Shown here: positions 35,817 to 56,788 of the stretch, piece after piece
Position numbering within the stretch: position 1 is the first letter of the stretch
How the letters are laid out: every line of letters begins with the position of its first letter
Origin: Sulfurimonas sp. hsl 1-7
GTDB taxonomy: Bacteria > Campylobacterota > Campylobacteria > Campylobacterales > Sulfurimonadaceae
Assembly: GCF_030577135.1 (NCBI RefSeq)
Contig: NZ_JAUIRR010000003.1
Location: 248,888 to 312,887 of the forward strand
DNA length: 64,000 nt
Direction of reading: 5' to 3'
Position numbers and translations under genes: made by a program
Notes under the pieces: model-generated
The model's input: only the letters and a program-made list of their open reading frames with translations
What the model was told of the DNA's origin: nothing
Databases searched by the model: none

Positions 35817-35848
35817 GTCTTTATGTGATATATAAAAAAGGTGTTTTT

Positions 35849-35959
35849 ATGTTAACAAAAATAATTATAGCAGTTGTTGTACTCTTTGCGCTCGGAGGCT
35901 TAATCTATAAAGCCCTCAACCCCTCTCCATACAAGCATCCTATGCATAAAGTAGGATAA
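35849..35959 (+). CDS. 36-aa membrane peptide
   Basis: 37-codon ORF with AAGGTG 5 nt before the ATG and its own -10 box. The product starts MLTKIIIAVVVLFALGGLIY, one membrane helix (about 4-22), and ends in a polar tail with KHPMHKVG (two histidines and a methionine). I do not recognise a family. It lies 58 bp after the split sulfur transporter and 64 bp before the PAS-GGDEF gene. The His/Met tail could bind metal; that is speculation. Confidence 0.6.
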   Translation: MLTKIIIAVVVLFALGGLIYKALNPSPYKHPMHKVG

Positions 35960-36023: not shown

Positions 36024-37001
36024 ATGATATATATTATTCTTGTTTTAGTTTTTTTAATCATTTTTATTTATCTAAGATTTCGTAAACAGCAGCAAAATCT
36101 TATTGAAGCGAAAGAAAAATATAAGTCTATTGTTGAAGATTTAGGGGAAAACTTTTTTGCATACCGCATGGATGCAGACTTTAATTTTGTCTACTTTAGT
36201 AAAAATATGGAGAATATACTCGGAACTCCTCCGGAAGATGTTCTTGGAAAAAATTTTGACAATATGTTAGAGTGGACCGGTGACTCCATAGAAATAGGTG
36301 CAAAAAGTCTCGATGCCTATTACCAAGGAAAACAAACCACTGATCTGACAATGATGTCATTTATTCACCCCATTAGCAAAGAGGAACGCTTTATAAGGGT
36401 AGCCGATCATGCTGTTCATGACAGTTCAGGCAATCTGTTATGGATAGAGGGGATCCTTGAAGATATTACAAGTAGAATAAATGCAGAAAAAGCACTCCAG
36501 CAAAAAAAACTTGAATTTGAAAAGCTTGCCACTACAGATATTTTAACAGATGTATACAACCGTTACTCCATCATGAAACAGATTGAAGAAGAGATCAATC
36601 GTATTAAACGTAAAGAGGAATTTTTATCCCTAATTATGTACGACTTTGACCATTTTAAAAATGTAAATGACAACTTTGGCCATGATGTAGGAGATTATGT
36701 ATTAAAAGAAACTACAAAAGTTATAAGTGGGGTAATTCGGGAAATCGACAAGATAGGTCGATACGGTGGCGAAGAGTTTCTTATTTTATTACCGTTTTCC
36801 AACTTATCTAATGCTCTGGAAGTTGCGGAAAGGATAAGAGATGCTGTTGCTTCTCATCATTTCAAAGATGTAGGACATATAACAATCAGCTTAGGGGTTG
36901 TTGAGTACAAGAAAGATGAATCTCGTAAAAGCTTATTGAAACGAGTTGATGAAAAAATGTATGAATCAAAACACTCTGGTCGCAACAAAATATCTTCATA
37001 A
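36024..37001 (+). CDS. Membrane-anchored PAS-GGDEF diguanylate cyclase
   Basis: 325 residues: one N-terminal membrane helix (1-18), a PAS domain (about 32-150), a short coiled coil, then GGDEF (about 165-325). The active site is intact (RYGGEEFLILLP), as are the metal-binding MYDFDHFKNVND and GHDVGDYVL segments. An inhibitory-site RxxD (REID) lies five residues before GGEEF, so the enzyme probably makes c-di-GMP and is product-inhibited. The PAS domain would set activity by an unknown signal. Confidence 0.9.
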   Translation: MIYIILVLVFLIIFIYLRFRKQQQNLIEAKEKYKSIVEDLGENFFAYRMDADFNFVYFSKNMENILGTPPEDVLGKNFDNMLEWTGDSIEIGAKSLDAYYQGKQTTDLTMMSFIHPISKEERFIRVADHAVHDSSGNLLWIEGILEDITSRINAEKALQQKKLEFEKLATTDILTDVYNRYSIMKQIEEEINRIKRKEEFLSLIMYDFDHFKNVNDNFGHDVGDYVLKETTKVISGVIREIDKIGRYGGEEFLILLPFSNLSNALEVAERIRDAVASHHFKDVGHITISLGVVEYKKDESRKSLLKRVDEKMYESKHSGRNKISS

Positions 37002-37023
37002 ATACTCTGTTGCGTAAAGACTA

Positions 37024-37164
37024 CTAATCTTTCTTTTTTTCAATACTCCATTTATTACCTTGATCACAAACAGACCACTTACTTTTTTTAGGCTTGTTTT
37101 TCTTCTTTTCAACACCCCATTTATTACTATCGTCACAAACAGACCATCTTCTTGTTCTAGCCAT
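37024..37164 (-). CDS. 46-aa basic protein with two copies of WSVCD-NKW motif
   Basis: 47-codon ORF with AGGA 6 nt before the ATG and an extended -10 box upstream. The product is two copies of one unit: RWSVCDDSNKWGVEKKK (residues 6-22) and KWSVCDQGNKWSIEKKK (29-45), joined by NKPKKS. Each unit has W-S-V-C-D, N-K-W, and a lysine run. No signal peptide or membrane segment. I do not recognise the family. Paired cysteines and tryptophans with basic tails could suit metal-linked nucleic-acid binding, but this is a guess. Two stop codons in tandem end it. Confidence 0.7.
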   Translation of the reverse strand: MARTRRWSVCDDSNKWGVEKKKNKPKKSKWSVCDQGNKWSIEKKKD

Positions 37165-37191
37165 CTTTTTCCTCGTATATTTTTTGCAGAA

Positions 37192-37197
37192 ATTATA
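37192..37197 (-). promoter_or_regulatory. Extended -10 promoter for the 46-aa gene
   Basis: The minus strand reads TGATATAAT, 28 nt before the ATG at 37164. It lies in the gap after slyD, so the small gene can be expressed on its own. Confidence 0.55.
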
Positions 37198-37259
37198 TCA
37201 CCAAAATAGGAATTTTAAGCATAAAAAATTCTGTGTTAAAAGAAGGGAGTTAAAATACT

Positions 37260-37718
37260 CTAGTGTTCATGTTCCATATTGAGTATCTCTTCTACTCCAG
37301 CATCTGAAAGGTGTTCCATCTCTAAAACTTCACCAGATACTCTTAAAGGGATTCCTGCAAGTTCATGGTTCGCATTCAGTGTTGCATATTCATCATCTAT
37401 ACTTTCAACAACGAAAACGACTGATTCATCTTCACCTTCAAGCTCCATTCCAACAGCAATCTCTTCTGGAAGATCCGTTAGTAACTCTTTTACCATTAAA
37501 GATTCGTTAAACTCACCAAAAGCGTCTGCAGGAGCGAGTAAAAGGTCAAAAGTATCACCAACTTTTTTCCCCTCTAATTCATCTTCCAGTTTTTGAAATA
37601 TCTGATTATAACCACCGTGAAGGTACATCACCTCATCACTCTCATCCAAGATGTTACCCTTCTCATCTGCTAACTTCAAAGAGATAGATACAAGTGTATT
37701 TTTTGTAATTTTTTCCAT
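37260..37718 (-). CDS. slyD: SlyD-like FKBP-type peptidyl-prolyl isomerase
   Basis: 152 residues, acidic. FKBP domain with an inserted IF chaperone flap, as in SlyD: VSISLKLADEKGNILDES, YLHGGYNQIFQKLEDELEGK, PADAFGEFNESLM, and NANHELAGIPL (the typical NHPLAG region, altered). The C-terminus ends MEHEH but lacks the long His-rich tail of E. coli SlyD. It speeds prolyl isomerisation and may help nickel handling. The ATG at 37718 has AAGAAG 6 nt upstream and is preferred to the GTG at 37724. Confidence 0.85.
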   Translation of the reverse strand: MEKITKNTLVSISLKLADEKGNILDESDEVMYLHGGYNQIFQKLEDELEGKKVGDTFDLLLAPADAFGEFNESLMVKELLTDLPEEIAVGMELEGEDESVVFVVESIDDEYATLNANHELAGIPLRVSGEVLEMEHLSDAGVEEILNMEHEH

Positions 37719-37869
37719 ATTCACTTCTTTATTTTTAATTTTCTTGATATTCTTGAAAGTTTACCACAAAGAAGTTTCATACCACTCTTTGCGCTTAATA
37801 GATCCTGCTTATTTGTCTAATTCATAAAAATCATAGTATTATTCCTTAGAAAATATATAGGAGGTTGAT

Positions 37870-54799: not shown

Positions 54800-56788
54800 T
54801 TAAGAACGTACTAATCTTCCTAAACTGTAGTATCTTTTTGTAAGTCTGCCTCTAGAATCCCAGTATTTCCAGTAGCCGTCTTTTTTACCGTAAGAGTATT
54901 TACCCTCTTCTACTTTTTTACCACGGTACCAACGTTGATAGAGTCCACTACGTTTGCCGTAGCTATATGTTTCTAAGTTCTTTAATTTCCCGGTAGAAGA
55001 ATCATAATATTTTTGCACACCGTCTGGTTGATTGTTAGAGTAATTTTTTTCATGGACTAATACCCCTTTATAGTTCCAGCTTTTAAATACACCGTCTTTA
55101 TCACCGTTTTTATAGTTTTCTTCACGAGTTTGTCGTCCCGAAGAGTAATCATAAGATTTTTGTACACCGTGTTTCTTGCCCATAGAGTAGTTATTTTCGT
55201 ATCTCAGCAGACCTTTACTGCTCCAGCTTTTAAATACACCGTCCTTTTTACCATCTTTATAATTTTCTTCCGAAGATGCACTTCCGTCACGGTTATATCT
55301 TTTAAAAACGCCGTCTTTTTTCCCATTTTTATAATGCTCTTCACGCTCTAAATAGCCGTCATAATAACTCCAAACTTTAAATGCACCATCTTTTTGTCCA
55401 TTTTTATAGTTCTCTTCACGATAAGACTTGCCATTTCTGTACTTTTTGAAAACACCGTCTTTTAAACCATTTTTATAATGCTCTTCATTTTCCAGTTCTC
55501 CTTTAGAGTTCCAGCCTTTAAAGGCACCATCTTTTTTATCAGCTTTATAGTGTTCTTCTTTTACAAGCTTTCCAGTATAAGTGCTATAGTATTTAAAGGC
55601 ACCGTCTTTTTGACCCTCTTTATAGTTCTCTTCAAGATTAAGTTTGCCGTTATATTCAAAGACTTTAAAAACACCATCTTTTCTATCCAGTTTATAATTT
55701 TCTTCAGATATTAATACACCCTCTTGAGTCCATCTCTTAAAAACACCGTCTTTTAGGTCATTGTTATAATGAGCTTCAAGCTTAGGTTTACCGTCTGCAT
55801 ACCACTCAAGTTGTGCACCGTCTTTGACCTTGTCTGTCATGTATGAAACATAACTTTTATACTCTATAGAAGTTTTCGCACCGTTTGATTCCGTAACTGT
55901 ATATGTATAGTGCATAAAAAATGCAAAATAGATAGCAGGTATAGCCGCAGCTAAGAACACACCTACACCTATTGCAATTTTTTTCTTTGTCCCTGGCGAC
56001 ATCGGAGGCTTATTTGCTTTTTCCTGCTTGATCTTCTCTTTTATCTCTATCTGCTGCGCCTCTACGTTTTCAAGAGCTTCTGCCTCAGGAGAACCTTTTA
56101 CAATAGGCATACCATGCGCATTTTTCGCTACACAATACATGTTACCAAGCGGTTTAGTCCCTACAAAACCGTTAATGATAAACACAATAATAGGACCGAC
56201 AAAAGGGATGAAGTTAAGCAGCCACATCCAACCAGAGAGATTTGCATCGTGAAAACGTTTAATAGAAGTTACTAAACTCACCCAGAACATTACAAACCAT
56301 GAGATAGTAAATATTACCGAGATAACCATCCCCAGACCTATTTTATTATCTACACGGCGTGAGACCTCAGAAGCGGCATCTCCATTGAGTACATTTGTAG
56401 CCATATCCGCCATACCTTTAATGACAAAGAAGTACTCCATCATCCACAATGCTATACTTAAAGCGATCAGTGATACAAATACTTTCCACCACTGTGCACG
56501 TGTATAACACCCTTTCGCTGAAAAAAGTCCCCCCGGTTTAGATAACACATACTCAGTAGCCGGACCGTTTGAGATATGAACATTCTCTACCTTTGGAGTT
56601 GTTGCATTTAGCAGATATACATCTTGTGCACTCTCTCCGTCTTCACTTAAAAAGTCTACCTCTTGCCCCTGATTTAATGCTCCGTCACCGCTAACATCCT
56701 CTTTTGTAAACGTATAACGCTTACCGTCCTCACCGCTGATTACCCCCTGCAGCTTCTCTGCATCGTAAAATAATATGTTTCCCTTCAT
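54800..56788 (-). CDS. Cold-shock-like, DUF805 and YwqK-repeat membrane protein
   Basis: 662 residues in three parts. First, an N-terminal OB/cold-shock-like domain (MKGNILFYDAEKLQGVISGE, then KRYTFTKEDV). Second, a DUF805 membrane domain with helices at about 104-126, 155-177 and 187-208 (FHDANLSGWMWLLNFIPFVG), then a coiled linker and another helix (about 272-292). Third, about fourteen YwqK/MORN-type repeats of 22-25 residues (KDGVFKxW then EENYKNGK) filling residues 315-655. The repeats probably lie outside the cytoplasm. Its function is unknown; MORN-type repeats often bind lipid or protein. Confidence 0.8.
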   Translation of the reverse strand: MKGNILFYDAEKLQGVISGEDGKRYTFTKEDVSGDGALNQGQEVDFLSEDGESAQDVYLLNATTPKVENVHISNGPATEYVLSKPGGLFSAKGCYTRAQWWKVFVSLIALSIALWMMEYFFVIKGMADMATNVLNGDAASEVSRRVDNKIGLGMVISVIFTISWFVMFWVSLVTSIKRFHDANLSGWMWLLNFIPFVGPIIVFIINGFVGTKPLGNMYCVAKNAHGMPIVKGSPEAEALENVEAQQIEIKEKIKQEKANKPPMSPGTKKKIAIGVGVFLAAAIPAIYFAFFMHYTYTVTESNGAKTSIEYKSYVSYMTDKVKDGAQLEWYADGKPKLEAHYNNDLKDGVFKRWTQEGVLISEENYKLDRKDGVFKVFEYNGKLNLEENYKEGQKDGAFKYYSTYTGKLVKEEHYKADKKDGAFKGWNSKGELENEEHYKNGLKDGVFKKYRNGKSYREENYKNGQKDGAFKVWSYYDGYLEREEHYKNGKKDGVFKRYNRDGSASSEENYKDGKKDGVFKSWSSKGLLRYENNYSMGKKHGVQKSYDYSSGRQTREENYKNGDKDGVFKSWNYKGVLVHEKNYSNNQPDGVQKYYDSSTGKLKNLETYSYGKRSGLYQRWYRGKKVEEGKYSYGKKDGYWKYWDSRGRLTKRYYSLGRLVRS
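54830..55850 (-). repeat. Coding tandem repeat, about 14 units of 66-75 bp
   Basis: Diverged direct repeats inside the gene at 54800-56788, each encoding KDG(V/A)FK followed by EE(N/H)YK. Unit length changes in whole codons, so the reading frame is kept. Confidence 0.8.

Follow-up and report, generated by a model that had tools for sequence, protein, structure and literature searches.

A short open reading frame (ORF) on the minus strand of Sulfurimonas sp. hsl 1-7 raises two questions: whether so small a frame is a gene at all, and what its product might do in the cell. The frame lies in a window of 64,000 nucleotides (the whole stretch of DNA analysed here), between a convergent gene for a GGDEF protein (36024-37001, plus strand) and a gene for an FKBP-type protein (37260-37724, minus strand). 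Its features are collected in Table 1. The first-pass annotation described a short gene for 46 amino acids with a ribosome binding site and an extended -10 promoter, and all three are present, with an ATG start and an AGGA placed before it. The tandem stops that it also listed (TAG TAG, 37021-37026) occur in the window, while the two relatives described below have a single TAA followed by a sense codon in the three-genome alignment.

Table 1. Features of the small gene and its surroundings, in window positions.
Feature	Position	Strand	Basis
CDS, 46-aa protein	37024..37164	-	ATG start, TAG stop; length and frame same in G031 and G082; conservation frame-specific
Ribosome binding site AGGA	37170..37173	-	read in sequence; CGAGG kept in all three genomes
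28-bp promoter block	37190..37217	-	identical in G000, G031 and G082; holds the extended -10
Extended -10 TGATATAAT	37192..37200	-	TG at 37199-37200, TATAAT at 37192-37197
Unit 1, residues 5-23 (RRWSVCDDSNKWGVEKKKN)	37096..37152	-	self-match at shift 23; 12/19 identical to unit 2
Unit 2, residues 28-46 (SKWSVCDQGNKWSIEKKKD)	37027..37083	-	self-match; predicted hairpin, strands 29-34 and 37-42 (AlphaFold2 single-sequence model)
69-nt direct repeat, copy A	37030..37098	-	nucleotide repeat comparison
69-nt direct repeat, copy B	37099..37167	-	78% identity to copy A
Long hairpin, 14-bp stem	36981..37014		RNA fold of 36960-37186; lies where the two genes converge and reaches into the 3′ end of the GGDEF gene

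The search for homologues that the first-pass annotation had proposed returned two, in genomes G031 and G082, and both keep the Trp, Cys, Asp/Glu and Lys of the repeated unit. A tblastn-like search of 149 related genomes (E up to 1) matched 13 genomes, three of them real: the window genome itself (G000), G031 (76% identity, E 4.8e-20) and G082 (62% identity, E 1.5e-13), with proteins of equal length. A profile of the three sequences matched 24 of the 135 genomes of the genus at E up to 0.5, where only these three were convincing, and 11 of the 397 genomes of the phylum at E up to 0.01, where the other eight were judged to be chance. The holders are thus 3/135 in the genus and the same 3/397 in the phylum, all within the genus. 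The unit was also written as a degenerate DNA pattern, to which every unit except unit 1 of G082 conforms exactly; this pattern found matches in three of the 135 genus genomes at up to two mismatches. Peptide patterns, tblastn and the unit DNA pattern found no relative in a collection of viral contigs or in one of contigs from species genomes; the latter did not return G031 or G082 either, and so may lack the lineage or omit near records. Phage records, plasmid records and PDB sequences held no match, Pfam, NCBIfam and PHROGs gave no family above chance, and no PADLOC family was matched with E allowed up to 10. For these five protein resources (Pfam, NCBIfam, PHROGs, PADLOC, PDB), the earlier statement that no known family shows the pattern holds, and a literature search found no paper on the protein and none matched by the unit string. 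The best of the weak Pfam matches, PF02013 (CBM_10), covers 12 aligned residues at chance level (E 0.12, 13.4 bits where the gathering cut-off is 23) and is matched by only one of the three members.

The remaining weak matches were rejected as relatives. A second match in the window genome (E 0.012) lies inside an ABC-transporter ATPase gene (L002, 1215-1949, minus strand), out of that gene's frame. For L002, L005-L012, L015, L016, L018, L020, L021, L023, L025-L030, L033, L037 and L072-L075, the translations are broken by stops, out of another gene's frame, partial, or without the unit, while L013, L014, L017, L019, L022, L024, L031, L032, L034, L035, L036 and L076-L078 were set aside by score and length alone. 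The best of the weak matches to a profile of the six units (L023 in G077, 17.3 bits) is an intergenic, 24-residue frame that has no start codon, and its best promoter match has nine mismatches, a level common in random stretches. One of the weak matches, L012 of G106, contains a tandem array at 1501-1596 that repeats SKWNIARSG in the reported frame and is unrelated to the small protein.

The alignment of the three genomes bears on whether the frame is translated. In a test that redistributes the observed substitutions randomly over bases of like kind (2000 placements), the annotated frame retains its amino acids better than 98.9-100% of the placements in all six comparisons, with p = 0.008 and 0.0045 for the two directions of window against G031 and 0/2000 in the four others. 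The other five frames are weaker, and those that reach weak significance (p 0.03-0.05 in some comparisons) are two antisense frames: frame -1, with p 0.031-0.0375 in the comparisons of G031 with G082 and 0.033 in one direction of window against G031, and frame -0, with p 0.03-0.05 in three comparisons. Counting nonsynonymous changes by themselves gives no significance between window and G031 (p 0.129 and 0.0725), and all of these selection tests rest on three sequences, which are few for such tests. Over 45 codons, the NG86 estimates of dN/dS by pair are 0.109/0.455, 0.281/0.549 and 0.215/2.22, giving 0.24, 0.51 and 0.10, with synonymous change saturated in the third pair (dS 2.2).

A small regulatory RNA, in which the frame is open by chance, would fit a promoter that is better conserved than the coding part and the stable fold of the RNA from 36960 to 37186, which exceeds that of shuffles (z -4.0 for the whole stretch). 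This origin is very unlikely given the frame-specific conservation of the amino acids, dN/dS values that stay under 1 for every pair, the lack of any frame-breaking indel across the three genomes and the lack of an Rfam match at the locus. The strongest helix of the fold lies behind the small gene rather than within its coding part, and the long hairpin there is probably, on the folding model, the shared transcription end of the small gene and the GGDEF gene; no terminator at the locus reached consensus in a terminator scan. Taken on the sequence comparisons, the ORF is almost certainly a genuine small protein gene and not a chance frame.

The promoter has changed less than the coding part. 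The three-genome alignment holds a single invariant run of 28 columns, the next longest being 10, while in the coding part the three sequences are identical at 30/45 first, 33/45 second and 26/45 third codon positions. A 24-base core of the promoter has one site in its own genome at up to three mismatches, and at the same threshold it occurs in four of the 135 genus genomes, namely the three holders with no mismatch and G004 with three; there is no related ORF behind the G004 site. The -10 box of the small gene is itself ordinary, since one study describes the housekeeping promoter of Campylobacter jejuni as an A/T-rich stretch followed by the extended -10 TGxTATAAT (PMC3656092). The identity of the stretch before the -10 in G082, where the gene sits at another place, suggests either constraint on this stretch or a block that moved jointly with the gene.

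The surroundings of the gene differ among the holders. In G031 both the GGDEF and the FKBP-type neighbours are present, along with an extra gene, which we take to be YitT-like, that separates the FKBP-type gene from the small gene. In G082, where neither neighbour is kept, the small gene lies directly behind a tRNA-Ser, and a different contig carries the FKBP-type gene. No functional link can therefore be drawn from these neighbours, and the different place in G082 implies that the small gene and its own promoter move, or are retained, together as one unit and without partner genes. The FKBP-type gene is found, as homologues with E up to 1e-10, in only 44/135 genus genomes, and its neighbours differ. 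A tree of this single short protein, covering 23 of the 30 fetched loci, groups G000, G031 and G082 with G028 and G089 (support 83/89). On this tree a single origin of the small gene is neither shown nor ruled out, with two changes needed and 62/500 shuffles as low. A further small ORF of the window (35825-35959, plus strand), of 44 amino acids with one hydrophobic segment, lies between transporter-like genes and the GGDEF gene and is also present in G031 (L003:293-427).

Rarity, a solitary position and movement between genomes, in one case to a site behind a tRNA, would suit a small component of an anti-phage or toxin-antitoxin system that a few strains retain. We regard this as unlikely, as no PADLOC profile is matched, no phage or plasmid relative was found, and neither the ORFs listed for L003 and L004 nor the genes around it in the window include an adjoining defence or mobile gene.

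A closer look at the protein shows that the repeat described by the first-pass annotation is real, although not exact. The best self-match of the window protein, at a shift of 23 residues, has a BLOSUM62 score of 82, where the maximum among 3000 shuffles of its own residues is 49 (0/3000 reach 82). The two relatives, tested in the same way against shuffles of their own residues, score 74 and 64, again with 0/3000 shuffles as high. The repeat period is 23 residues, and the two units agree at 12/19 residues in the window protein and at 8/19 in both G031 and G082, so that "exact" overstates the likeness. The 46-residue protein probably arose by tandem duplication of a unit of 23 codons. Elsewhere in the window, a 662-aa ORF (54800-56788, minus strand) carries many E-x-H/N-Y-K-x-G-x-K-D-G-x-F-K repeats, presumably MORN-like, behind a membrane part and a short N-terminal stretch.

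Across the six units of the three proteins, Trp3, Cys6, Lys17 and Lys18 are kept throughout, along with Ser/Thr at position 4, Val/Ile at positions 5 and 14 and an acidic residue at position 7. The earlier claim of conserved Trp, Cys, Asp and Lys therefore stands for the first Trp, Cys and Lys, while the Asp may be Glu and the second Trp (Trp12) is present in five of six units, G082 unit 1 having Ala there. The alternation of W-S-V-C-D, a turn and K-W-x-V/I fits a hairpin. Each unit would most likely form a small β-hairpin, in which a polar turn joins a W-[ST]-[VI]-C-[DE] strand to a [KQ]-W-x-[VI] strand, and a lysine-rich linker or tail would come after it. A single-sequence AlphaFold2 model, made with no alignment and of low confidence (mean pLDDT 60.4, pTM 0.32), places a strand at residues 8-10 in addition to the two in unit 2 (Table 1); residues 31-40 are modelled best (pLDDT 73), and the first hairpin is hardly formed.

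The three proteins are strongly basic, with a computed pI of 10.0-10.3 and a computed charge of +8.5 to +9.5 at pH 7, and hydrophilic, with GRAVY values of -1.35 to -1.74; no membrane or signal segment is therefore expected. Their charge makes binding to nucleic acid plausible, while one Cys per unit and no His make it unlikely that a single chain holds a metal site of the classical kind. We tentatively suggest that the small protein acts by binding nucleic acid or the ribosome, a function that we consider quite possible given the charge, the conserved aromatic and Cys positions and the absence of a membrane or signal segment; as to a ligand, no solved structure or family relative was found in Pfam, NCBIfam, PHROGs, PADLOC or the PDB. 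The two Trp/Cys hairpins may come together as one small sheet or a dimer, and the lysine-rich linker and tail could hold the protein to RNA, DNA or the ribosome, with the Cys pair perhaps locking or switching it by oxidation.

The same charge, together with the Trp content, would also suit a secreted cationic antimicrobial or bacteriocin-like peptide, with Trp, Lys, a possible disulfide and no leader, and the patchy occurrence (3/135 genomes) and the other genomic place in G082 would agree with such a role. It is nevertheless quite improbable for a strongly hydrophilic protein with no leader or signal segment, encoded by a solitary gene that no transporter or immunity gene adjoins (L001, L003, L004). 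The Cys residues raise a further alternative, a redox or thiol protein whose two Cys pair in an intrachain or interchain disulfide and which acts as a sensor of oxidation, as a buffer against it or, when dimeric, as a binder of metal. That Cys is kept in 6/6 units while the turn residues vary freely speaks for this thiol function, whereas the absence of His and of CxxC, the spacing of the two Cys per chain by 23 residues and the lack of likeness to a known thiol protein in Pfam, NCBIfam, PHROGs and PDB searches leave it rather unlikely. It is also compatible with binding to nucleic acid or the ribosome and does not exclude it. Taken as a whole, the best explanation is a real, taxonomically restricted gene for a basic, soluble protein of two hairpins that binds through its lysine-rich parts, an account that we favor while placing it somewhat short of probable.

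In size and charge, the small protein presumably resembles the small basic ribosome-associated proteins bS22 (SRA) and bTHX, with no sequence match to them in any search. We know of no Trp/Cys repeat in either. As to the kind of gene, two sources describe taxonomically restricted (orphan) small-protein genes as a class in bacteria (PMC1824705, PMC10003748), and a census of C. jejuni small proteins also records small ORFs that are specific to a species or strain (PMC11955535). The gene described here is coding and conserved in more than one species, with no relative outside its lineage in the collections searched. Like the orphan genes as these sources present them, it is short, has a soluble product and its own promoter, and has relatives in only a few near genomes; it would be transcribed separately. 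It stands apart from typical members in its internal two-unit repeat and unusually strict promoter block, without being an exception to the class. The protein family is thus new and very narrow, while the gene kind, a taxonomically restricted gene, is ordinary. A bolder combination of these traits, a recently born fold of fewer than about 50 residues built from a duplicated 23-residue Trp/Cys hairpin unit, acting as a redox-switched binder of nucleic acid or the ribosome in a few species, under promoter constraint stricter than that on the coding sequence, would be a long shot.

By itself this small-protein family settles no long-standing question. It is a verified addition to the lineage-restricted small proteins that often escape genome annotation, and it catches a two-unit repeat after divergence of its units (8 to 12 of 19 residues alike). 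It could be a compact case of a new small protein forming by tandem duplication.
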